Shown here: positions 32,928 to 44,288 of the stretch, piece after piece
Numbering within the stretch: the stretch's first letter is position 1
Layout: the number at the start of each line of letters is the position of its first letter
DNA from: Gaiellaceae bacterium
GTDB lineage: Bacteria > Actinomycetota > Thermoleophilia > Gaiellales > Gaiellaceae
Direction of reading: 5' to 3'
Length of the DNA: 64,000 bases
Assembly (NCBI GenBank): GCA_021323315.1
Contig: JAJTCQ010000004.1
Location: 1 to 64,000 of the forward strand
The notes under the pieces: model-generated
What the model was told of the DNA's origin: nothing
Database searches by the model: none
Seen by the model: only the letters and a program-made list of their open reading frames with translations
Translations under genes and position numbers: made by a program

Positions 32928-34384
32928 TCGACACACCGACCGTCGACTGGCTCGCCCTCTCTCCGACGATCGCCCTTCTCGCAGCGGCAGGGGTTGCGTT
33001 GCTCTCGGCGCTCCTTGCCGGCTGGATGCGGAAGAGCGTCGCCGGCATAGCGGCGCTGCTCGGCTTCGTCGGCGCGGCGGTGTGCGCGGGCGTCGTCTTC
33101 GACGAGAGCTCGACACCGGAAGTCCTGCTCGAGGGGACGATGGTTCGCGACCAGCTCGCAGCGCTGGCGCAGCTCGTCCTCGGCGTGACCGGTGCCGTCG
33201 TCGTTCTTGCGTCTTGGAGCGAGCGGCGGCGCGAGAATCACGCCGAGTACTACGCGCTCCTCGCAACCGCGGGCGCCGGCATGGTGTTCTTCGTCGGGGC
33301 CGACAACCTGATGACTCTCTTCCTCGGGCTCGAATGGTTCTCGCTCTGCCTGTACATCCTGGTCGCGATCGACTCCGAGCGGGAGACGTCGCTCGAAGCG
33401 GGCCTGAAGTACCTCATCGTCGGCGGCTTCGGCTCGTCCGTGCTGCTCTTCGGCTCGGCTCTGGTCTACGGCGCGACGTCGGAGCTGAGCTTCCCCGCGA
33501 TCGCCGCGGCCGACGCGTCGAACGACGCCTTCCTCTACGCAGGGCTCGCGATGATCCTCGCCGGGCTCGCATTCAAGGTCTCTGCGGCTCCGTTTCACAT
33601 GTGGACGCCCGACGTGTACCAGGGCTCTCCGACCTCGATCACCGGGTTCATGGCCGCCGCGACGAAGACTGCCGCGTTCGTCGTGACCCTGCGTGTCCTG
33701 GTCACGGCGTTCCCGGCGCAGGAAGACCTCTGGACCGTCACCGTGGCCGTGCTCGCCGCGATCTCGCTCGTCTGGGGAAACCTCGGCGCGCTCGCTCAGC
33801 GCGACCTCAAGCGGATCCTTGCGTACTCGTCCATCTCGCACGCCGGCTTCATGCTGATGGCCATCGCCGCGTTCTCCGATCGCGGCGCCGAGGCGCTCCT
33901 CTATTACCTCATCCCGTACTCGGCGATGTCCGTCGGAGCCTTCGCCGTGGTCGCCGCCCGCGAGCGCGAGCTGAACGCCCCCGTCACTCTCGACTCGCTC
34001 GCGGGGATGGGCTGGGAACGGCCGTACTACGGAGTCGCGCTCTGGATCTTCATGCTCGGCATGGCCGGGTTCCCGCTGACGGGCGGCATGTTCGGGAAGC
34101 TGTTCGTGTTCTCGGCTGCCTACGATGCGGGCGACTGGTGGCTGGTGCTCCTCGGCGTTGCTGCGACCGCCGTATCCCTCGGCTATTACCTGAACGTCGT
34201 GCGCTGGCTGTACATGCGCTCGGGAGCCGAGCTCCGCCTGGCCCCGGCGGGCGGATCGCCTCCCCGCGACCCGGCGCTTGGCATCGCGATCTCCGCGTCG
34301 GTCGTCGTCACCGTCGGCTCGTTCTTCGTCGTGCAGCCGATCCTCGACGTCGCGTCCGACGCGGCCGGCTCTCTCCCCTTCTGA
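32924..34384 (+). CDS. nuoN: NADH-quinone oxidoreductase subunit N
   Basis: A 486-residue antiporter-like subunit (ND2) with LFLGLEWFSLCLYILVA, KVSAAPFHMWTPDVYQGSPTS and YSSISHAGFMLM. GTG start overlaps the nuoM stop. It ends the 14-gene operon; a weak 6-base hairpin (GGCTGG / CCAGCC, 34502-34521) lies 118 bases downstream. Confidence 0.95.
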   Translation: MIDTPTVDWLALSPTIALLAAAGVALLSALLAGWMRKSVAGIAALLGFVGAAVCAGVVFDESSTPEVLLEGTMVRDQLAALAQLVLGVTGAVVVLASWSERRRENHAEYYALLATAGAGMVFFVGADNLMTLFLGLEWFSLCLYILVAIDSERETSLEAGLKYLIVGGFGSSVLLFGSALVYGATSELSFPAIAAADASNDAFLYAGLAMILAGLAFKVSAAPFHMWTPDVYQGSPTSITGFMAAATKTAAFVVTLRVLVTAFPAQEDLWTVTVAVLAAISLVWGNLGALAQRDLKRILAYSSISHAGFMLMAIAAFSDRGAEALLYYLIPYSAMSVGAFAVVAARERELNAPVTLDSLAGMGWERPYYGVALWIFMLGMAGFPLTGGMFGKLFVFSAAYDAGDWWLVLLGVAATAVSLGYYLNVVRWLYMRSGAELRLAPAGGSPPRDPALGIAISASVVVTVGSFFVVQPILDVASDAAGSLPF

Positions 34385-34544
34385 GGGGAACTTGCTCCGG
34401 CGATCTCGAAGGTTCGCGCAGGCAAGCGTCCATTCAAGGCGCAGGCGATCGACGCCGGTCGCCTCGCGCTCGCCGCTGGAGGCGCGGATCTCCGAGGACG
34501 TGGCTGGACGGTCAACCAGCCCGTCAGTCCGCTCGCTCCTTCTC

Positions 34545-34550
34545 TAGATT
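34545..34550 (+). promoter_or_regulatory. -10-like box for the 89-residue orphan gene
   Basis: TAGATT ends seven bases before the ATG at 34558. The preceding 160 bases after nuoN hold only a weak 6-base hairpin. Confidence 0.45.
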
Positions 34551-34557
34551 TCGGGCG

Positions 34558-34827
34558 ATGCACGAGCGCTGGTTCGGGGCAACGGGACGCAAGGTCCCGG
34601 CGATCGTCCTCGAGGGGACGCTCGACCTGTCGGAGGCGCTCGTTCTCGACGACGTCTCCGACCGGAACGCCATCCACGCCGCGCATCACGCGGGCACGCC
34701 CGTCGTCGTTCGCTGCTCGACTGCGGCGGAGGTGCACGCCGCGCTCTCGCTCGGGCCGGTCGCGTGCGCGCTCGTGACCGACGAAGCCTTGCTCTCTCTC
34801 GATCTGGCCGAGATGACGTACGGCTAG
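34558..34827 (+). CDS. Small protein of unknown function (89 residues)
   Basis: I do not recognise this protein. It starts MHERWFGATGRKVPAIVLEG and ends LLSLDLAEMTYG, with an alternating strand/helix pattern and no signal peptide, membrane segment or metal motif. The segment GTPVVVRCSTAAEVHAALSL reads like a beta-alpha unit. Support for a real gene is the start preceded at seven bases by TAGATT, the same leaderless-type arrangement as known genes in this window, and codon use like its neighbours. It stands alone between nuoN and the convergent LDH2-like gene. Confidence 0.5.
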   Translation: MHERWFGATGRKVPAIVLEGTLDLSEALVLDDVSDRNAIHAAHHAGTPVVVRCSTAAEVHAALSLGPVACALVTDEALLSLDLAEMTYG

Positions 34828-34911
34828 CCCCGTCGTCGCCACGTACTCGATCTGCGCCTGCGATCTCGAGGCGGCAGTGGGGCGTCGCCGTGCAGTCGAG
34901 GTTCCTCGCGT

Positions 34912-35646
34912 TTAGCGGTCGCCCGGCAGCCTCCGGCCGGCGGCGAGCGCTCGCAGCGCGGGCACGGGGTCGTGATCGGGACGTGCGACGACGAGAACGG
35001 CGCCGTGCTCCGGTCCTGCGAGCGCGGACACGAGCAGCTCGAGCCCGACTGCGAGCGCGAATGCCTTGTGCGCGTCCTTTCCGCCGAACGGCACGAGCTC
35101 GTCGTCGCCCGCCCGGCCGACCAGCACGTCGCCGGCCGTCACGGCGCCCATCGAGACGTCGGCGACCAACGCAGGGCCGTCGCTCGAGGGAATCGCGATC
35201 GCCAGCGGATTCGTCCCGGCGAGCGGCGGCCCGCCGTCGGGGTGCGCGAGTCGCTTCGGCGACGTCGCCGTCAACGCCGCGACGAGCCCGCCCTCCGCGA
35301 GCCGGCGCACCCAGTATCCGAGCGTCCCCGTGGGGAAGCAGCGCCGCGCGACGACGACACGTGCTCGCCCTGGCGGATGGGCGAGCGTGGCGCGCACGAT
35401 CTCGTCGAGCACGAGGTAGCCGAGCGCACCGTGCCCGTCCCAGCGCTCGAAGCCCTCCTCCGACTCGACGAGCACCGGCCGCGCCGACGGATCGAGCTCG
35501 AGGGTGGCCAGCCACTCGATGCGCGCGAAGCCGTGCCCGACCTTGCCACGGCGCTCCGCGTCGGCGAAATGCGCAACGAGGACGTCGACAACGTCCGCGT
35601 CGAATCGGAGCCCGAGAAGACGCTCGCGCGCCTCTGCTTCGCTCAT
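34912..35646 (-). CDS. Short malate/L-lactate dehydrogenase-like (LDH2/MDH2 family) oxidoreductase
   Basis: A 244-residue protein resembling the LDH2/MDH2 family of NAD(P)-dependent 2-hydroxyacid dehydrogenases: GHGFARIEWL near the start, GGLVAALTATSPKRLAHPDG, GTNPLAIAIPSSDGPALVADVSMG, and PFGGKDAHKAFALAVGLELLVSAL, the counterpart of the GGHKGYGLA motif. Family members are usually about 330-350 residues, so roughly 90 residues are missing, mainly around the central helices. It may be a compact active form or a diverged one. The ATG overlaps the HAD gene's stop (ATGA). Last gene of the five-gene operon. Confidence 0.72.
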   Translation of the reverse strand: MSEAEARERLLGLRFDADVVDVLVAHFADAERRGKVGHGFARIEWLATLELDPSARPVLVESEEGFERWDGHGALGYLVLDEIVRATLAHPPGRARVVVARRCFPTGTLGYWVRRLAEGGLVAALTATSPKRLAHPDGGPPLAGTNPLAIAIPSSDGPALVADVSMGAVTAGDVLVGRAGDDELVPFGGKDAHKAFALAVGLELLVSALAGPEHGAVLVVARPDHDPVPALRALAAGRRLPGDR

Positions 35647-36323
35647 CGAGTCGAGAACGCCCGGTCGCGGAACCGCAGCACCCGCCAACCCCGCTCGGCG
35701 GCGATCGCGCGCAGCGTCCGGTCCGGGTTCACGGCGACCGCGTGGCCGACTGCCTCGAGGAACGGGACGTCGCTGGCCGAGTCGGAGTACGCGGTGGACT
35801 CGGCGAGGTCGATGCCCTTCTCCCTGGCGAGCGTTGCGAGTGCGTCTGCCTTCGCCCCTCCGTCGAGGCGCCTGGCGAGCCGGCCCGTGTAGCTGCCGTC
35901 GACGACCTCGGCCGTCGATCCGAGCCCACCGTCGAAGCCGAGCTCGGCGACGAGTGCGTCGACGATCTCCTGCAGCGCCGCCGAGACGACGAACGACTTC
36001 TCGCCACGCTCGCGGTGACGCGCGACGAGGTCGAGCGCGTCGCGGTAGACGTGCGGCTTGAAGGCGGAGTCCACGGCCTCGACGACGATCTCGCGCATCA
36101 CCTCGACCGGGACCCCTTTCAGGAACGCCATCCCCGTCTCGGCCGTCCGCCCGACGCGGGAGGTGCCTGCCCCGTAGCGGATGAAGACGAGTTGCGCGAG
36201 CATCGCCTTGGTCCGATCCCGGCGCCGGAGCAGCCCTCGACGATGGAACGCGGGCGCGAGCGACAGCGAGCTGGAGCGCGAGATGAGCGTCCGGTCGAGG
36301 TCGAAAAACGCGGCGCCCGGCAC
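35643..36323 (-). CDS. HAD-IB family phosphatase (SerB-like)
   Basis: A 226-residue HAD phosphatase. Motif I is AFFDLDRTLISRSSS with the nucleophilic Asp at its start (DxDRT type), motif II falls in KSFVVSAAL, and motif III/IV is YSDSASDVPFLEAVGHAVAVNPD. This subclass includes phosphoserine phosphatase-like and lysophosphatidate-type enzymes. Start GTG at 36323 directly precedes motif I. It lies eight bases after mrp and overlaps the LDH2-like gene; a role on a small phosphorylated metabolite made or used by its operon partners is possible but not shown. Confidence 0.82.
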   Translation of the reverse strand: MPGAAFFDLDRTLISRSSSLSLAPAFHRRGLLRRRDRTKAMLAQLVFIRYGAGTSRVGRTAETGMAFLKGVPVEVMREIVVEAVDSAFKPHVYRDALDLVARHRERGEKSFVVSAALQEIVDALVAELGFDGGLGSTAEVVDGSYTGRLARRLDGGAKADALATLAREKGIDLAESTAYSDSASDVPFLEAVGHAVAVNPDRTLRAIAAERGWRVLRFRDRAFSTR

Positions 36324-36331
36324 GCGCCGAC

Positions 36332-37420
36332 CTACGAGAGAACCGTGAGCGGCTTGCGAATCGCGCCCGCCCGAAGCGCGGCGACGGACTCGGCGAGCGC
36401 CACGATGGCGGCTGCCGACTCGGACTCGGGAGCGACCTCCCCGACCGGACAGCCCTCGTCGGCCGCCTCGCGCAGAACGGGATCGAGCGGAATACGTGCG
36501 AGTAACGGGACCCCCATCTCGTCTGCCAGCGCCTGCCCACCCCCCGCGCCGAAGAGCTCCTGACCGGTGCCGACCAGGTACGACATGTTCTCGACGGCAC
36601 CCAGGAGCCGCATCCCGGTCTTCTGCGCCATCTGCGCGGCCCGCACCGCAACCTGCTGCGCGGCGGGCTGCGGCGTGGTCACCACGAGCGCCTCCGCCCG
36701 CGGAAGGAGCTGCCCGAGCGACATCGCGACGTCCCCGGTTCCCGGAGGCATATCCACGAGCAGCGTGTCGAGATCTCCCCAGTGCACGTCGGAGAGGAAC
36801 TGCTCGAGCGCCTTGTGCAGCATCGGGCCGCGCCACATGATCGGCGCGTTCTCCTCCAGGAAGAAGCCGATGGACATGAGCTTCAGGTCACCGCGGACGG
36901 GCGGGACGATCATGTCGTCGACGGCGATCGGCTTCTGGTGGACGCCCAGCATGTGCGGAATCGAGTGGCCGTAGATGTCGCCGTCGAGAACGCCCACCTG
37001 CTCGCCCAGCTCGGAAAGTGCGTAGGCGAGGTTCGCAGTGAGCGTCGACTTCCCGACGCCACCCTTACCCGACGCGACAGCGACGACGCGCGTTCCCGGG
37101 GAGAGCGAGATCGTCCGCTCCCCGGCGTGGCCGCCGCGCAGCCGGGTCACGAGCGCGGCCTTCTCCTCCGGAGTCATGACGTCGAAGCCCAGCCGGACGC
37201 GCGTGACTCCCGGTACGGCGCCGACGTGACGCGCCACCTGCTCCTGGAACGAATCCCGGAGCGGGCAACCCACGACCGTGAGCGCGATCGTGACCGACAC
37301 CGCGCCGTCGTCCTGCACGAGGACGTCTCGCACCATGTCGAGCTCCGTCACGGGCCGCCGGAGCTCCGGATCGATGACGTTCTCGAGCGCCTTCAGGATC
37401 GCGTCGCGGTCCGGTCTCAT
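36332..37420 (-). CDS. mrp: Mrp/NBP35-type iron-sulfur carrier ATPase
   Basis: A 362-residue protein with an N-terminal DUF59/MIP18 domain (LKALENVIDPELRRPVTELD) and a deviant Walker P-loop GKGGVGKST, then DGDIYGHSIPHMLG and DMPPGTGDVAMSL. The family loads and transfers iron-sulfur clusters. The CPxC pair that many homologues have after VENMSY is absent here (MSYLVGTGQELFG), so cluster bridging through that motif is not possible. ATG at 37420 overlaps the upstream phosphatase stop (ATGA). Confidence 0.9.
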   Translation of the reverse strand: MRPDRDAILKALENVIDPELRRPVTELDMVRDVLVQDDGAVSVTIALTVVGCPLRDSFQEQVARHVGAVPGVTRVRLGFDVMTPEEKAALVTRLRGGHAGERTISLSPGTRVVAVASGKGGVGKSTLTANLAYALSELGEQVGVLDGDIYGHSIPHMLGVHQKPIAVDDMIVPPVRGDLKLMSIGFFLEENAPIMWRGPMLHKALEQFLSDVHWGDLDTLLVDMPPGTGDVAMSLGQLLPRAEALVVTTPQPAAQQVAVRAAQMAQKTGMRLLGAVENMSYLVGTGQELFGAGGGQALADEMGVPLLARIPLDPVLREAADEGCPVGEVAPESESAAAIVALAESVAALRAGAIRKPLTVLS

Positions 37421-38229
37421 CGGGCCGAGCGTACCTGCAGGGCGGCGGCGAGCTGGGCGACGAGCTCGGGCGAAGCCGCGGCCGCGAGCCGGGAGCGAGC
37501 GCCCAGGTCGAGCGGGGCAGCGTCGAACGGCGGGTCCTCGAACAGGTCGACGGCCAGACCGCACTCCCGCACGAGCAGCTGCGCAGCGGCGATGTCCACC
37601 GACCGGGCCGGCTTGAGGCAGACGACCCCGTCGACCCGACCTGCCGCGAGCTGGCACAGCGAGAGCGCGAGCGACCCCATCACGCGCACTCTCCCGGCGA
37701 GACCGATCACACCACGGATGCGCTCGGCGATCGCCGGCGTCGTCGTGCCCTCGAAGGAGAGAATTTCGATGGCGTCCTTCGGTCCGATCACGCCGAGCCT
37801 CCCGCCGTTCAGGAACGCGCCGCCGCCGCGCTCGACCGTCCACTCCTCCCGCGTTCCGAAGTCGTAGACGTACCCGAACGACACGTCTCCCATCGCCGGG
37901 CCATCAGCGACCGCGAGCGAGAACGAGAAGAACGGGATCCCTCGCTTCGCGTTCACCGAGCCGTCTATCGGATCGACGACGACGTGTCGCGCGCCGCCCT
38001 CGCCGAACGTCCGCGTCCCGAGCTCCTCGGAGACGAGCACGAAATCCTCGTCGAGCGCAGCGAGACGCGCGACGACGGCGTCCTCCGCCGCCTGGTCGAT
38101 GGCCGTCGTCTCGTCACCGCCGACGCCGAGCTGGAGCACCGGCTCGCGCTCGACACGCGTGGGCAGCCGCTCGAGCACGGCCGTGATGTCCTCGACGCAG
38201 AGGCGACAGGTCTCGAGCCAGTCCCTCAA
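37417..38229 (-). CDS. Inositol monophosphatase-family phosphatase
   Basis: A 270-residue lithium-sensitive-phosphatase fold: GGDETTAIDQAAEDAVV, SEELG, and the metal-binding VVVDPIDGSVNAKRGIPFF, with a late RSVDIAAAQLLVRECG matching the second aspartate motif (WDxAAG-like). Substrates in the family include inositol phosphate, fructose 1,6-bisphosphate and 3'-phosphoadenosine 5'-phosphate. The only good start is the TTG at 38229, overlapping the DUF1015 stop as TTGA, so expression is probably coupled to that gene. Confidence 0.85.
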   Translation of the reverse strand: MRDWLETCRLCVEDITAVLERLPTRVEREPVLQLGVGGDETTAIDQAAEDAVVARLAALDEDFVLVSEELGTRTFGEGGARHVVVDPIDGSVNAKRGIPFFSFSLAVADGPAMGDVSFGYVYDFGTREEWTVERGGGAFLNGGRLGVIGPKDAIEILSFEGTTTPAIAERIRGVIGLAGRVRVMGSLALSLCQLAAGRVDGVVCLKPARSVDIAAAQLLVRECGLAVDLFEDPPFDAAPLDLGARSRLAAAASPELVAQLAAALQVRSAR

Positions 38230-39305
38230 GGGGCCACCGGATGGAAGAGAAGGCCGGACAGCGGCTTCGGGAAGAAGTACGTGCTCTTCGGCGGCATCGG
38301 CTCGCCGCGTCGCGCCACGGCGAAGACGTCCGCGACCCGCGGCCGACGCAGGATGAACGCGACGTCGGCTGCTTCGCTGTCGACCTCCGCGAGGGCCGCC
38401 TCGAGGCTGGGCGTGTAGCGAATCCCGTCGAGGCCGTGACGGTCGACGAGCTCCACGTCGAGCTCGCCGGCGAGGCCGTACACGAGCCCCACCCCGCCGC
38501 GGCGATACCTGATGGCCGCAGCGCGCTCGTAGCCGGCCCCCTCGAGCCGCGCGAGGCCGTCCTCCATGCTCGAGGCCGGCTGCTCGTCCGCATCGCTCGC
38601 GAGCTCCGGACGACCCGAGAAGACGCGATGCGTGGGAAAGAGCTGCAAACCTGCGTCGTCGGTCGGCACGACGAGAGCCATGATCCGCACGGGCACACCG
38701 AGCTCCTCGCCGAGCTCCACGGCGCTCTCGTAGCGATGGTGCCCGTCCGCGACGAGCAGCTCGGCGTCCCGCAGCCCGTCCGCCGCCTCGGCCGGGAGCC
38801 GCCAGAGCGACGTGCCGGCGACGGCGAGGTCGGGGGTCGTCTCGGGAGGTGACGGCGCGAAGGCGGTCTCCGCGAGCAGGAGGATCGGCTCGGGCTGCAC
38901 CCGCGTCTCCTGCAGCAGGCGACGCCGCTCCTCGCGAATGCGCGGATGCGTGCGCTCGTGGGGAAGGACGCGTCCCTCCGCGTAGGGCATCGCAGCCAGC
39001 GAGACGATCACTCCGTGCCGCTCGCGGGCGACGCCGTCCGGGCCGACGAACTCCTCGCGCGCAAGCCACACCGACGATGCATCGTCCCGCTCGAGGATCC
39101 CCGCCGCGAGCCAGTCGCGGTACAGCTCCCCCGCAGCAGCAGCCGACTCGGGCAAGGTCACGTGGACGACGTTGTAGGGACTGCGCGTGTACAGCGCCGC
39201 GCGCTCCTGGTCGGAGACGGCGTCGTACGGCGGCGCGACGAGGTCGGCCAGCGCGCCGGCCGCGCCGGCGTAGCGGACGGCGCGAAACGGCTGCACATCG
39301 GCCAT
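38226..39305 (-). CDS. DUF1015 family protein
   Basis: A 359-residue protein matching DUF1015: ADVQPFRAVRY at the N-terminus, LVAPPYDAVSDQE, NVVHVTLPE, LLVADGHHRYESAVELGEEL and PKSTYFFPKP are all family hallmarks. DGHHRY suggests a catalytic or ligand site, but the function is not established; I recall such genes near serine-biosynthesis genes in some Firmicutes, which would fit the SerB-like phosphatase in this operon. ATG at 39305 lies seven bases after TACGCT. It is the first gene of a five-gene operon whose members overlap. Confidence 0.85.
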   Translation of the reverse strand: MADVQPFRAVRYAGAAGALADLVAPPYDAVSDQERAALYTRSPYNVVHVTLPESAAAAGELYRDWLAAGILERDDASSVWLAREEFVGPDGVARERHGVIVSLAAMPYAEGRVLPHERTHPRIREERRRLLQETRVQPEPILLLAETAFAPSPPETTPDLAVAGTSLWRLPAEAADGLRDAELLVADGHHRYESAVELGEELGVPVRIMALVVPTDDAGLQLFPTHRVFSGRPELASDADEQPASSMEDGLARLEGAGYERAAAIRYRRGGVGLVYGLAGELDVELVDRHGLDGIRYTPSLEAALAEVDSEAADVAFILRRPRVADVFAVARRGEPMPPKSTYFFPKPLSGLLFHPVAP

Positions 39306-39312
39306 CGCGGCG

Positions 39313-39318
39313 AGCGTA
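39313..39318 (-). promoter_or_regulatory. -10-like box for the DUF1015 operon
   Basis: TACGCT on the minus strand ends seven bases before the DUF1015 ATG. It lies in a 42-base divergent gap that also holds the box for the gene on the other strand. Confidence 0.45.
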
Positions 39319-39335
39319 CCAACGGGTTTGAGCCA

Positions 39336-39341
39336 TAGACT
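39336..39341 (+). promoter_or_regulatory. -10-like box for the YhaM-like gene
   Basis: TAGACT ends six bases before the GTG at 39348. With the opposing TACGCT box it makes a back-to-back leaderless promoter pair. Confidence 0.5.
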
Positions 39342-39347
39342 CGGGGC

Positions 39348-40187
39348 GTGGCCACGATCGCCGAGCTCGTCGCGGACCGGACCGTCGAAGGCGTGTTCGC
39401 GGTCGCCAAGAAGCAGCGCAGGCGCACGCGGGCAGGCGCCGCGTATCTCGCCCTCGAGCTCGTGGACGCCAGTGGCCGCGTGGACGCACGGGTCTGGAAC
39501 GACGTCGACCTGCTCGACCAGCGCTTCGGGGAGGGCGACGCCGTACGGGTGCTCGGTCGCGTCGAGCGCTTCGGAGGAAGGCTCCAGGTGCAGGTGCGTA
39601 CGGTCGAAGCCGCCGAGGACACCGACCCGGCCGAGCTCACGCCTTCCCTGCGGCGCGACGCGGACGAGCTCGACGGCTTCTTCGAGTTCCTCGCGGCCGA
39701 GATCTCCCACGAGGGACTTGCCACTGTCGTCGACTCCTTCGTCCGGGACGCGGACGTCCGGAGAGCGCTTCGCTCGCTCCCGGCGGCCGGCCTCGAGGGG
39801 CACCACGGCTACGCGGGAGGCCTCCTCGAACACGTGGTCGGGGTCGCGACCCTCTGTCGCGAAACCGCACAGCTCCATCCGCGTCTCCGACAGGACCTCG
39901 TGCTCGCCGCGGCACTCCTCCATGACGTCGGCAGGATCCGTGAGCTCGGTCCGGGGCCGTCGTTCCGGCAGTCCGACGAGGGCCGGCTCCTCGGGCACGT
40001 CCACCTCGGGCTCCGGATGATCGAGGAGCGCGCCCGCGACCTCGATCCGGCCGTCCTCGCCGAACTCCTGCACGCCGTCGCGTGCCACCACGACCGCCCC
40101 GCCGCACGCACTGCCGAGGCAGCCGTGCTCTACCACGCGAACCAGCTCGACGCCCAGGCCGCGACCCGCCCGGTCGGCGACGACTGA
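39348..40187 (+). CDS. YhaM-like 3'-5' exoribonuclease (OB fold plus HD domain)
   Basis: A 279-residue protein with an N-terminal nucleic-acid-binding OB-like region (AYLALELVDASGRVDARVWND, VRVLGRVERFGGRLQVQV) and a metal-dependent HD phosphohydrolase domain: HHGYAGGLLEHVVGV, ALLHDVGRIREL, and HAVACHHDRP. This is the layout of YhaM, which degrades single-stranded RNA and DNA from the 3' end. The protein is slightly shorter than YhaM of Bacillus. GTG start without a Shine-Dalgarno, six bases after TAGACT. Confidence 0.85.
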   Translation: MATIAELVADRTVEGVFAVAKKQRRRTRAGAAYLALELVDASGRVDARVWNDVDLLDQRFGEGDAVRVLGRVERFGGRLQVQVRTVEAAEDTDPAELTPSLRRDADELDGFFEFLAAEISHEGLATVVDSFVRDADVRRALRSLPAAGLEGHHGYAGGLLEHVVGVATLCRETAQLHPRLRQDLVLAAALLHDVGRIRELGPGPSFRQSDEGRLLGHVHLGLRMIEERARDLDPAVLAELLHAVACHHDRPAARTAEAAVLYHANQLDAQAATRPVGDD

Positions 40188-40193
40188 TCCAGC

Positions 40194-41027
40194 GTGGCGG
40201 CAGTCCTCGCGCTCGGCGGTGCCGTGTGCTGGGGCGCCGGTGACTTCCTCGGCGGCCTCGCGTCACGACGGATGGCGGTCATCGCCGTGCTTGCGATCTC
40301 GCAGGCGATCGGCCTGGCCGGCGTCCTCGTCTGGGTCGTCGTCGCGCACGAAGCCATCCCCGGTATCGGGGAGCTGCTGCCCGCGGCCGCTGCTGGCGTC
40401 GCGGGTCTCGTGGGGCTCGGCGCGCTCTACCGCGGGCTCGCGATCGGGGCGATGGGAATCGTCGCGCCCATCTCGGCCGCATCTCCGCTCGTCGGTCTCA
40501 CCGCGGATGCGGTGCAGGGAACGATTCCCGCTGCGCTGCAGTGGCTCGGCATCGCACTCGTCCTCGTGGGCATCGCGACGCTCTCACGCGAGCCGCCCGA
40601 CGCTGGAGGCCGCCGCATCGCGAGCGGGGTCGGTCTCGCACTCGTCGCCGCGCTCGGATTCGGGCTCTTCGTCGTCGGGCTCGACGCGGGATCGGACGAG
40701 AGCGCGGCGTGGGCGGTCGTCGCCGCCCGCGCGACGTCCGTCTCGATCGCGGTCGTCGTCGCGCTCGTCCTGTCGATCTCGCTGCGACCGCAACGCGGGA
40801 ACTGGCCGCTCCTCGTCGGCATCGGCGTCGGGGACACGCTCGCGAACGTGCTGGTCGCGATCGCGTCGACACACGGTTCCGTCGGCATCGTCGCCGTGCT
40901 GAGTGCGCTGTACCCGATCGTGACGGTCCTGCTCGCGCGGCTGTTCCTCGACGAGCGGCTCACGACGCCCAGGCGAGTGGGCGGCGTGATTGCGATCGCA
41001 GGCGCCGTGCTGGTCGCAGCGGGCTGA
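40194..41027 (+). CDS. DMT/EamA-family transporter
   Basis: A 277-residue membrane protein with about ten predicted helices in two EamA repeats; CWGAGDFLGGLASRR begins the first, and YPIVTVLLARLFLDERLTTPRRVGG is the typical EamA end with its D/E-R motif. The exporter's substrate is unknown. GTG start six bases after the YhaM-like stop, likely cotranscribed. Confidence 0.85.
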   Translation: MAAVLALGGAVCWGAGDFLGGLASRRMAVIAVLAISQAIGLAGVLVWVVVAHEAIPGIGELLPAAAAGVAGLVGLGALYRGLAIGAMGIVAPISAASPLVGLTADAVQGTIPAALQWLGIALVLVGIATLSREPPDAGGRRIASGVGLALVAALGFGLFVVGLDAGSDESAAWAVVAARATSVSIAVVVALVLSISLRPQRGNWPLLVGIGVGDTLANVLVAIASTHGSVGIVAVLSALYPIVTVLLARLFLDERLTTPRRVGGVIAIAGAVLVAAG

Positions 41028-41085
41028 AGTCACGACGCCGCCGCCACCCACTGCGCTCTCGACCGCTCCACTCGGGATACTGGTC

Positions 41086-41220
41086 GTGCTCGTGACGATG
41101 GCGATCGCGGGAGTCGTCGGGCTGATCGCCGTATCAGCGCGGCCAGCGATGTCACGGCGGTCGGTGTCGGCTTCGGAGTCGCGTGTCAGCTTCCTCGCCG
41201 GGGGACCGACCGAGGCCTAG
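41086..41220 (+). CDS. Possible 44-residue single-helix membrane protein
   Basis: A short frame with one strong transmembrane segment (VLVTMAIAGVVGLIAVSA) followed by a basic/serine-rich tail. GTG at 41086 or ATG at 41098 could be used; neither has a clear ribosome-binding site. Its TAG shares the CTAG tetranucleotide with the ychF stop codon on the other strand. In so GC-rich a sequence this may be chance; low confidence. Confidence 0.25.
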   Translation: MLVTMAIAGVVGLIAVSARPAMSRRSVSASESRVSFLAGGPTEA

Positions 41221-42152
41221 ACGTTGAAGCGGATGTTGAGGACGTCTCCGTCCTCGACAACATAGGTCTTGCCTTCCAACCGTTGAAGCCCCCTCCGCGC
41301 CGCCTCGGCGTGCGATCCGCACTCGAGGAGATCGTCCCACCGGATGACCTCGCAGCGGATGAAGCCGCGGGCGATGTCCGAGTGGATCGACTCGGCCGCG
41401 TCGAGTGCCGTCCGGCCGTGCCGGAGGGTCCACGACCGCGCCTCCGTGTCTCCGACGGTGAAGAACGTGATGAGGCCGAGCGCCTCTTTCAAGCGCACGA
41501 CGAGGTCGTCCAGCGCCGACGCTCCGGAGCGGAACTCCGCCGCCTCCTCGTCCGAGAGCTCGGCGAGCTCCATCTCGAGCGCGCAGTCGATCCCATCGGG
41601 GCCGTTCTCGAGCGGGATGAGCGGCTTCGTCGTCAGGGGCTCGAGCTCGGTGGGAAGCTCACTCGGCCAGTCGGACAACGGGTGGCCGGCGTCGAGGTGC
41701 GCGAGCAGGCGCTCTGTCAACTCGACCTCCTGCCGCTTGGCGCGATCGCCGGATTTCGCCTCCTTGCGAACGCGCTCGAGGCGGCGGTCGACGTGCTCGC
41801 GATCCGCGACGATCACCTCCAGCCGCAGCGTCTCCAGGTCCGCGGCGGGCTCCGCACCGTCGGAGAAGCCGTCGAGGACGGCCAGCAGTGCGTCCGCCTG
41901 GCGGAGCTCGCCGGGGATCTCCCCGCGCCCGGGGGCGTCGACGACTCTGATCGCCGCGGGCGTGACCTTCTTCGAGCCGACGACCTCCGCGAGGCGCTCG
42001 AGGCGCTCGTCGCGAATCACTGCCATGCCGAGGTTCGGCTTCTGCGTGACGTCCGCGTATGCCGTGACCTGGGCTCCGGCCCGTGTCAGCGCGTTGAAGA
42101 GCGTCGTCTTCCCGGAGTTGGGAAGGCCGACGATGCCGACCCTGAGTGCCAT
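41217..42152 (-). CDS. ychF: YchF-like GTPase/ATPase, compact form
   Basis: A 311-residue Obg-family protein. G1 is GLPNSGKTTLFNALTRAGAQ, followed by the YchF-typical YADVTQKPNLGMAVIRDERLERL. G3 is VVDAPGRGEIPG instead of the usual DIAGLVKGAS, and the loop after it is shortened; I could not find the NxxE-type G4. A TGS-like C-terminus (LGLITFFTVGDTEARSWTLR, then AARRGLQRLEGKTYVV and DGDVLNIRFNV) is well kept. Normal YchF is about 360 residues. YchF binds ribosomes and responds to oxidative stress. It ends a minus-strand operon beginning with ftsH. Confidence 0.87.
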   Translation of the reverse strand: MALRVGIVGLPNSGKTTLFNALTRAGAQVTAYADVTQKPNLGMAVIRDERLERLAEVVGSKKVTPAAIRVVDAPGRGEIPGELRQADALLAVLDGFSDGAEPAADLETLRLEVIVADREHVDRRLERVRKEAKSGDRAKRQEVELTERLLAHLDAGHPLSDWPSELPTELEPLTTKPLIPLENGPDGIDCALEMELAELSDEEAAEFRSGASALDDLVVRLKEALGLITFFTVGDTEARSWTLRHGRTALDAAESIHSDIARGFIRCEVIRWDDLLECGSHAEAARRGLQRLEGKTYVVEDGDVLNIRFNV

Positions 42153-42158
42153 GCGCCG

Positions 42159-42383
42159 CTAGTTGGCGAAGCCGACTCGCGACTCGCGCGCGTACCGCTT
42201 CACGTAGAGCACGCGGTCGAGGACCAGGGTGACCGTCCCCTCCTGTGCGTCGAGCGCGAGGGTCGATGACGCGCCCGCGCCGAGGTTTCTGTCGAGCGCG
42301 TCCGCGCTGTCGGCCGTGACGAGCCAGCTGAGGATCTGCCCGCCCGCGAACCCGATCTCGACACGAATCAAGTCGTCAGCCAC
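42159..42383 (-). CDS. Small conserved-looking protein of unknown function (74 residues)
   Basis: I do not recognise the family with certainty. The protein starts VADDLIRVEIGFAGGQILSW, predicts as mostly beta strands, and ends with LDRVLYVKRYARESRVGFAN. GTG at 42383 has a GGAGGTGG ribosome-binding site about seven bases upstream, which strongly supports it as a real gene. It overlaps the epimerase stop by eight bases and is followed by ychF after six bases, so it is part of that operon. Confidence 0.7.
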   Translation of the reverse strand: MADDLIRVEIGFAGGQILSWLVTADSADALDRNLGAGASSTLALDAQEGTVTLVLDRVLYVKRYARESRVGFAN

Positions 42384-42774
42384 TCGCAACCACCTCCGTG
42401 AGGACACCGTGGACGGAATCCGGATGGACGAACGCGACCTCGAGACCGAACAGCCCCTGCCGCGGGACGTGGTCGATGAGCTGGGCTCCCTGAGACTCGA
42501 GCTCGTCGAGCGTCGCGCGCAGGTCATCCGTGGAGAGCGCGACGTGATGTACGCCCGGACCGCGTCGCGCCAGAAAGCGCGCAACCGGCGTGTCGTCCCC
42601 GGTCGGCGTCACGAGCTCGATGCGGCCCTCCCCGACCAGCATCGACGCCGCCTCCACGCCCTGCTCGCGAAGCGGCTCGCGGTGCTCGAGACGTGCGTGG
42701 AAGAGGTGCTCGTAGGTCGCGATTGCCTCGTCGAGATCGGTGACGGCGACGCCGAGATGGTGGATCCCGCGCAC
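42376..42774 (-). CDS. Methylmalonyl-CoA epimerase-like VOC protein
   Basis: A 132-residue VOC-fold protein. IHHLGVAVTDLDEAIATYEH at the start and GPGVHHVALSTDDLRATL in the second half match methylmalonyl-CoA epimerase, with metal-ligand histidines in HHLG and HHVA and glutamates in IELV and VLTEVV. It would interconvert the D and L forms during propionyl-CoA use. The mutase is not in the window, so the assignment rests on sequence type alone. GTG start at 42774, 23 bases after ftsH. Confidence 0.82.
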   Translation of the reverse strand: MRGIHHLGVAVTDLDEAIATYEHLFHARLEHREPLREQGVEAASMLVGEGRIELVTPTGDDTPVARFLARRGPGVHHVALSTDDLRATLDELESQGAQLIDHVPRQGLFGLEVAFVHPDSVHGVLTEVVASG

Positions 42775-42797
42775 GCTCGCGACTCTACCCGGCGACT

Positions 42798-44288
42798 TCA
42801 GTCACGCATGGGAAGAGCGCGCACGGTGCCGACCGTCTCGGACGAGTGCGACTCCGGCACGGTATCGGCGAGCAGAGCCTGGAGCTCGGAGCGGTCGAGC
42901 GTCTCCTTCTCGAGCAACGCAGAAGCCACGCGATCGAGCGCGGCGCGGTGCTTCTGGAGCAACCGCTTCGACTCCTCGTACGCGTGATCGGTCAGCCGTG
43001 CCTGCGCGGAATCGCGGAGACGCTTCGTCTCCTCCGAGAGTGCGTAGTTGTCCGCGCGCATCGTCCGCGACGGCGCGACGTCCGACATGCCGTACTCGAA
43101 AACCATCGAGCGGGCGATCGCGGTCACGCGCTCGAGGTCGTTGGCCGCTCCGTTCGTGATGCGCCCGAAGACGATCTCCTCGGCAGCGCGACCCGCGAGG
43201 AAGACCTTCATGAGGTCGACGAACTCCTCGCGCGTGTGCATGTAGCGATCCTCGGTCGAAGTGTTCAGCGTGTAGCCGAGGGCCTGTCCGCGCGAGACGA
43301 TCGTTGCCTTCTGCGCCGGGAAGAGGTCGCCGACGAGGTGGGACATCACCGCGTGCCCGGCCTCGTGGTAGGCCAGGATGCGCTTCTCCTTCTCGGAGAC
43401 GACGCGCCGCTGCTGGAGTCCCGCGACGATCCTGTCCATCGCCGAGTCGAAGTCGTGCTGGCGGATGTGCTGCGCGCTCGTGCGGCCGGCGAAGATCGCC
43501 GCCTCGTTGCAGAGGTTCGCCAGATCGGCTCCGGTGAGCCCGGCCGTCTGCCGGGCGATCACGCCGAGGTCGACGTCCGACGCCAGCGGTTTGTCGCGTG
43601 TGTGCACCCTCAGGATGGCCTCGCGACCGGCGACGTCGGGCGCCGCGACGAGCACTTGGCGGTCGAAGCGACCCGGTCGCAGCAGTGCCGGATCGAGGTC
43701 CTGGAGTCGGTTGGACGCGGCCATGACGACGACCTCGTCACGCGCGTTGAAGCCGTCGAGCTCGACGAGGAGCTGGTTCAGCGTCTGGTCGTGCTCGCGA
43801 TGGAACCCGCCGCCGATCCGAGCAGTGCCGACCGCGTCGAGCTCGTCGATGAAGACGATCGACGGCGCATGTTTGCGCGCTTCCTCGAACAGCTTGCGGA
43901 TGCGTGCAGCCCCGAGGCCCGCGAACATCTCGACGAACGACGAGGCGCTCTGCGAGTAGAAGTTCGCGCCCGACGCGCTCGCAACAGCCTTCGCGACGAG
44001 CGTCTTGCCGGTACCCGGAGGCCCGTGCAGCAAGATTCCGCGCGGTACGCGAGCGCCGAGCTTCTCGAAGCGCTTCCGGTCGCGCAGGAACTCGACCACC
44101 TCGACGAGCTCCTCCTTCGCCTCGTCGAGCCCGGCGACGTCGTCCCACGACACGTCGACCTGCGACCCGCGCACGACCGGGGCCGGTTTTGCCCGCGGCA
44201 TGAACCTGAGCGTGTACAGGAGGAGGAGGATGACGATGCCGAAGAACACGATCGGCAGCCACGTCAGCAGCGTGTTCTCGAGATCCAC
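42798..44288 (-). CDS. ftsH: FtsH-type AAA+ zinc metalloprotease with a single N-terminal helix
   Basis: A 496-residue membrane-anchored protease. Only one transmembrane segment ([20 protein letters not shown]) precedes the AAA domain; the second helix and the 70-100-residue extracytoplasmic domain of standard FtsH are missing, and the total is about 120-150 residues below normal. Walker A GPPGTGKT, Walker [11 protein letters not shown], the pore loop (SSFVEMFAG, the usual FVG-type loop), the SRH ending in LRPGRFDRQ, zinc site HEAGH and the third ligand region [12 protein letters not shown] are all intact. GTG at 44288 stands beside an inverted repeat (44291-44310). Confidence 0.92.

Follow-up and report, generated by a model that had tools for sequence, protein, structure and literature searches.

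The stretch of DNA analyzed here (the window) comprises 64,000 nucleotides from a Gaiellaceae bacterium and belongs to contig C20 of a 53% complete genome of 1.5 Mb. We examined a string of five minus-strand genes at 39305-34912, headed by the gene of a DUF1015 protein and, directly after it, that of an IMPase-like phosphatase. An earlier note on this DNA had described five genes overlapping by four bases or lying within ten, and their positions, strand and families were all confirmed: every joint is a four-base overlap or an 8-base gap, as listed below together with a gene remnant at the far end.

38226..39305, minus strand: DUF1015 protein, 359 aa, ATG start (PF06245, E 3.4e-44)
37417..38229, minus strand: IMPase-family phosphatase, 270 aa, TTG start inside TTGA (PF00459, E 1.8e-27)
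36332..37420, minus strand: Mrp/ApbC-type P-loop NTPase, 362 aa, ATGA overlap (PF10609 and N-terminal PF01883)
35643..36323, minus strand: HAD-IB phosphatase, 226 aa, GTG start, 8-base gap (TIGR01490)
34912..35646, minus strand: short LDH2-fold protein, 244 aa, ATGA overlap (PF02615)
34832..34913, plus strand: convergent gene reduced to a frameshifted remnant (its first ~29 residues), touching the LDH2 stop

Pfam confirmed the family of each of the five products. Among the NCBIfam matches shown, four genes received support, the curated cut-off was passed by the HAD protein alone (TIGR01490 and TIGR01488), and DUF1015 had no match. We infer that the five genes are probably co-transcribed. Four-base gene overlaps are frequent in compact genomes, and it is the conservation of order, not these overlaps, that goes beyond chance.

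Gene order was counted in the window and 36 further loci of its family (37 in total) in tblastn-anchored frames, in which a few negative gaps (e.g., -526) are start-choice artefacts; the neighborhood genes were codon-model calls, with some starts wrong and some genes missed, and three loci of group f2 (L055-L057), which hold a longer LDH2 at another place, were excluded. DUF1015 and IMPase stood on the same strand and in the same order in all 25 loci with both, within 30 bp of each other in 24, and strand and order were likewise constant for IMPase and Mrp (26/26), Mrp and LDH2 (30/30 loci with both), Mrp and HAD (10/10), and HAD and LDH2 (9/9, all overlapping). Of the two remaining joints, IMPase-Mrp was within 30 bp in 5 of the 26 pairs and Mrp-HAD in 6 of the 10. 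All five genes occurred together in 7 of the 37 loci. Of the 30 loci holding Mrp and LDH2, 9 showed HAD, and in L118 HAD is present but LDH2 is not. Because several loci break off at contig ends, not every missing gene is truly absent. The gene string is thus real and conserved within the family, but loosely, the relatives keeping the order and seldom the tight packing. As to the earlier note's concern that the set might not be conserved outside this genome, the order turned out to be conserved, but the strict five-gene form is nearly unconserved, being found only in the window and in L031 (largest gap 40 bp).

Such loose conservation could also be that of ordinary co-transcribed neighbors, with a common promoter and a conserved place in a lineage that keeps its gene order but with no joint pathway, and we give this explanation somewhat less than even credence. 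It is favored by the flanks, where unrelated genes are conserved in place too: among the 14 fetched family loci with a called DUF1015 gene, 13 have a YhaM-like gene next to it, and EamA, YchF, VOC, FtsH and Nuo genes recur. It is also favored by the gap of at least 700 bp between IMPase and Mrp in 19 of 26 loci, where DUF72-like and transporter-like genes (labels that we assume from the sequences) and others intervene, and by the fate of LDH2: of 22 family genomes, four (G006, G028, G020 and G163) gave no LDH2 match, a fifth genome (G007) has a broken copy, and in L039 and L058 LDH2 occurs without an Mrp match. In the single-contig genome G006, what we take to be transposase-like pieces lie directly after HAD (L118 10944-11755) in place of LDH2. 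In G003 and G006, a gene resembling that of a D-2-hydroxyacid dehydrogenase lies next to the cluster; it was considered as a stand-in for LDH2 and rejected, since G003 has both, on opposite strands. Together with the patchy occurrence of HAD, these features leave the single five-gene pathway suggested in the earlier note without support. On the other hand, simple neighborhood does not readily account for the overlap of HAD and LDH2 in all nine loci with both, nor for a DUF1015-IMPase coupling that recurs among different flanks.

This coupling was found in group f5, outside the window's family, where IMPase follows DUF1015 directly in four of five inspected loci (overlapping by 4 or 8, or 19 bp apart) and the flanks differ from those of the window's family. 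DUF1015 also overlaps an IMPase-like gene in three named actinobacterial metagenome-assembled genomes (L131-L133), and Mrp lies 21 bp after DUF1015 in one f3 genome (G038). In the inspected loci of the class outside f1, f5 and this f3 genome, neither IMPase nor Mrp stood beside DUF1015, and an attempt to read the role of the operon from its neighbors in the wider class failed on this absence. In two Fimbriimonadaceae records (L170 and L198), DUF1015 has a different coupled partner, a gene of 268 aa that shares a four-base overlap with it and whose product looks metallo-hydrolase-like by eye.

To characterize DUF1015 itself, a profile of 37 sequences was compared with the sequences of the PDB. 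Up to E 10 it returned four matches only, namely 1vk1 from Pyrococcus (7.5e-6) and three sequences of the free serine kinase SerK (4.4e-4 to 5.0e-4), in an alignment that sets in at the DGHHR motif and extends across the C-terminal lobe. The predicted structure of DUF1015 (mean predicted local distance difference test score, pLDDT, 94.4) gave nine Foldseek matches at 0.001 or below, every one of them SerK, 1vk1 or SbnI. In VIA-align, SerK of Thermococcus kodakarensis (TK0378; 5x0b and 5x0k) and 1vk1 shared the same two-lobe fold over 212-220 residues with Z of 13.4-14.9, led by 5x0k (Z 14.9, 220 residues, root-mean-square deviation 4.0), and the free serine kinase SbnI of Staphylococcus shared it as well (5uje, 6nr6 and 5ujd; Z 12.5-13.3, 5uje scoring 13.3), followed at a distance by sulfiredoxin (Srx; Z 5.9) and ParB (5.2). 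The DUF1015 model thus shows the two-lobe SerK fold including its ParB/Srx-like domain. The best alignments leave some 88 N-terminal residues of DUF1015 (28 in two others) unmatched, and identity is 16-20%.

In sequence, the DGHHR motif (residues 187-191) and a C-terminal K-T region align with those of SerK and 1vk1. The motif, of the G-x-x-R type, is phosphate-binding in SerK. H116, E117, D187-R191, H226 and R227 were invariant in all rows of the 37-row alignment and of a diverse 40-row alignment (five sequences are common to both), and P338, K340 and K347 were kept in 36/37 (one gap) and 40/40 rows. The catalytic Glu of SerK is E30, whose mutants are named in PDB titles, and E117 falls approximately where the aligned range (model 89-359 against SerK 6-240) would put it, a placement at the level of the range. 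Judged by profile and predicted model, DUF1015 is a sequence and fold relative of the free serine kinases, although a fold in common with SerK does not prove the same reaction.

According to a passage of the SerK report, bacteria yielded no clear-cut homologues (PMC5120207). A title in the reference list of a 2025 survey of the ParB fold assigns SbnI to staphyloferrin B biosynthesis, and the portion consulted of the survey itself lists 'DU1015' among fused domains, its function not being given there (PMC12704722). In our search of open-licence PubMed Central, no paper assigning a function to DUF1015 was found, and the literature on the glycine riboswitch with serA/serC and on the reductive glycine pathway yielded nothing further on it. 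The family is common, being present in 106 of 119 genomes of the window's class and in 54/61 and 30/61 genomes of a Bacteroidota-centred and a Bacillota-centred sample, respectively; these labels derive from the centre records (Ignavibacteriales L184; Carboxydothermus L176 and Anaeromassilibacillus L152) together with knowledge of the taxonomy.

By one procedure for all groups, DUF1015 was located and 1.5 kb on each side was searched for same-strand serA, serC or class-V aminotransferase (AGT)-like genes. Such a neighbor was present in 18 of 30 loci of the Bacteroidota-centred sample (the 30 best-scoring, from 54 genomes with a match), in 8 of 31 of the Bacillota-centred sample (DUF1015 located in 29), and in 3 of 80 named loci (the best 80 of 582), all three from Chloroflexi with serA upstream. 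With a handful of such genes per genome, we estimate the chance expectation at well under one neighbor per sample, and the counts are set beside this estimate, not a random control. A second Bacillota sampling gave the same genomes except the centre and one new locus (L293), repeats being counted once; L252, L286 and L293 of the phylum samples repeat places among the 80 named loci, none with a serA/serC neighbor. In one Chloroflexi locus (L149), Pfam confirmed the neighbors as PGDH with an ACT domain and a class-V aminotransferase; downstream of this aminotransferase, serA and DUF1015 cluster lies a selenocysteine tRNA (RF01852, 7860-7955). Two published studies agree with these neighborhoods: an excerpt of one describes glycine riboswitches upstream of COG4198 genes, presumably those of Firmicutes (PMC2211319), and a section of the other gives, for two Porphyromonas species, the gene order serC, NAD(P)-binding protein, DUF1015 (PMC11316588). 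The DUF1015 of these Bacteroidota-centred, Bacillota-centred and Chloroflexi clusters is of the same family as that of the window.

In the relatives of the window, the serine genes lie elsewhere. serA scored above its cut-off in 29 of 37 relatives and serC-like matches occurred in 34 of 37, none above the TIGR01366 cut-off, which just 1 of 14 control genomes passes; the two adjoin each other in, e.g., G006, G010 and G002. The genome of the window, itself only half complete, yielded neither.

As for the two phosphatases, the IMPase scored 97 bits on PF00459 (cut-off 27) and carries the metal-binding motif DPIDGS, which appears as D[PG][ILV]DG[ST] in all 24 family copies longer than 200 aa; a later motif, [VWA]D[IVL]AA, was present in 20 of the 24. 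Its nearest NCBIfam model is PRK12676 (fructose-bisphosphatase (FBPase)/IMPase; 170 bits), which is also the best match of five relatives. On this basis, the genes could form a gluconeogenic module in which the IMPase is the cell's FBPase, fed by 3-phosphoglycerate derived from serine; however, the score lies below the cut-off of 264, and a GlpX-type FBPase was found in 39 of 41 relatives, so that such a role would be dispensable. We rejected the IMPase as the cell's FBPase on account of the GlpX enzyme and regard the module as very improbable.

The HAD protein scored 155 bits on TIGR01490, above the cut-off of 98.3, and 45.8 bits on the SerB model TIGR00338, below its cut-off of 144.15. No match above the SerB cut-off was obtained in any of 61 relatives. 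This absence is weak evidence, because just 7 of 14 control genomes pass that cut-off, and the HAD protein may still have phosphoserine phosphatase activity. A missing SerB might, weakly, leave room for the IMPase or the HAD protein as phosphoserine phosphatase.

The Mrp protein has the deviant Walker A motif (KGGVGKS) and a NUBPL/ParA domain. The C-terminal CxxC of Mrp/ApbC proteins is a cluster ligand motif; it is missing from the window's copy and was found in 0 of 33 family copies, which makes the earlier label of an Fe-S carrier doubtful. The short LDH2 scored 103.7 bits on PF02615 (cut-off 38.8), covering positions 10-187 of the 333-position profile, and its model (pLDDT 91.8) shows the complete LDH2 fold, with Z of 23.4-25.9 over 237-244 residues, shared with malate/lactate dehydrogenases such as AllD, DpkA and L-sulfolactate dehydrogenase. 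Retained in common with these enzymes are the GHG His (His38) and Asp163; a GHG His and an Asp form the usual LDH2 dyad. Unlike the aligned LDH2 chains of 312-361 residues, the 244-aa protein lacks an internal loop and the C-terminal part, and the His of the NSxHxG loop is replaced by Pro (Pro105) in all 28 rows of its alignment; a hidden Markov model alignment to 3uoe, 1v9n and 2g8y places this Pro opposite the His. It agrees with the LDH2 dehydrogenases in family score and fold, but not in this His or in the full length of about 330 aa.

Of the 37 genomes of the window's family, 29 gave a match to the short LDH2 (a contig-end piece only in G025; the broken copy in G007), as did 3 of 5 f2 genomes (the longer form at another locus) and, weakly, two of f3, which makes 34 of 61 overall. 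In the 119-genome sample of the class, matches at E 1e-50 or better were confined to the window's family (18 of 22 genomes), and five genomes of other families gave matches of 7e-21 to 1e-12 that resemble ordinary LDH2. The f2 relatives at L055-L057, of about 300 aa with the internal loop kept and with other neighbors, look intermediate between a full LDH2 and the 244-aa form. As for DUF1015, both Mrp and the short LDH2 count as its conserved neighbors, with at most a putative part in the serine chemistry proposed below.

At the LDH2 end of the string, the remnant at 34832-34913 was recognized by comparison with L036; relatives carry in its place a full 274-residue gene convergent to LDH2, presumably DUF1028-like, and no further match to the rest of that gene was found elsewhere in the window. 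Between the Nuo operon and the five-gene cluster, 34558-34827 encodes an 89-aa protein (MHERWFGATGRKVPAI...) without a Pfam match, which stands in the same place in relatives at many family loci. No tRNA was found in the window.

The informative member of the string is DUF1015, on whose free-serine kinase chemistry sequence, fold and the neighborhoods in other phyla converge. The gene string would be built on the tightly coupled DUF1015-IMPase pair, with DUF1015 most likely a phosphotransferase of the SerK/SbnI type, a reading that we hold at about even confidence. In the proposed mechanism, the ParB/Srx-like lobe would hold the phosphates of the nucleotide via the DGHHR motif, while the serine hydroxyl would be activated by an acidic residue, probably E117, to give O-phosphoserine. 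Beside the serA/serC-like genes of other phyla, this step would link serine, in either direction, with the phosphoserine pathway (serine, O-phosphoserine, 3-phosphohydroxypyruvate, 3-phosphoglycerate). In the window's family, with serA and the serC-like gene elsewhere, DUF1015 would be made together with the IMPase-like phosphatase and sometimes also the HAD-IB protein; the substrate of either phosphatase could be phosphoserine or a metabolite close to it. The earlier guess of phosphoserine chemistry thereby gains support for DUF1015, through its relation to SerK and the serA/serC neighbors in other phyla, but not as a dedicated pathway of five enzymes.

Several observations weigh against a serine kinase. 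The diverse 40-sequence profile returned the same four PDB matches alone, and more weakly (5.9e-4 to 5.9e-3); it covered the DGHHR and C-terminal parts only, and no residue-by-residue alignment of SerK E30 was obtained. The consulted part of the ParB-fold paper reports that a SerK-like protein binds CTP rather than ATP (PMC12704722). With a phosphoserine phosphatase made alongside it, a serine kinase would spend its donor to no purpose, unless the substrates of the phosphatases are others. None of the 30 best-scoring loci of the window's class (106 genomes had a match) showed a serA/serC neighbor, and 77 of the 80 named loci (best 80 of 582) lacked one; in the window's family, where DUF1015, unlike that of the serA/serC clusters, adjoins IMPase, such a neighbor was found in 0 of 24 loci (39 given, DUF1015 located in 24). 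The link to serine is therefore borrowed from other phyla.

The riboswitch scan likewise lent no support. Besides the glycine riboswitches published for COG4198 genes (PMC2211319), one is described over serC and serA in a single Clostridium species in a section of another study (PMC3766115). At gathering score none was found at 34000-43000 of the window or in 50 scanned DUF1015 loci (16 + 20 + 14, many with 1.5 kb flanks only; 48 distinct places, L286 repeating L176 and L293 repeating L152). A c-di-GMP-I-GGC riboswitch (RF03167) was located near a DUF1015 locus of the Bacillota-centred sample (L269, 2796-2882).

The tight pairing with IMPase in both the window's family and f5, taken with the 0/24 count, would also suit a DUF1015 that uses the SerK fold on another small substrate, e.g., another hydroxy acid or inositol, with the IMPase reversing or following that step. 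We consider this rather unlikely, as serA/serC neighbors occur in the samples of three other phyla and the sequence and fold match points to SerK and SbnI specifically.

Returning to the serine-kinase reading, a bolder extension can be offered only tentatively: DUF1015 might represent a major, unrecognized bacterial branch of free serine kinases connecting serine and 3-phosphoglycerate in either direction via O-phosphoserine in many bacteria; in the window's family the kinase would have moved off the serA/serC cluster and been wired to its own phosphatases and a miniaturized LDH2 of altered active site, as a separate phosphoserine-centred branch. To understand the odd operon, its first two genes are a better guide than the notion of a five-enzyme pathway. 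The analysis provides a testable job for DUF1015, a common family for which the open-licence literature yielded no function, and a single purified protein would suffice for the test. If the serine-kinase role is true, it would add an extra step to the serine, glycine and cysteine metabolism of many bacteria.

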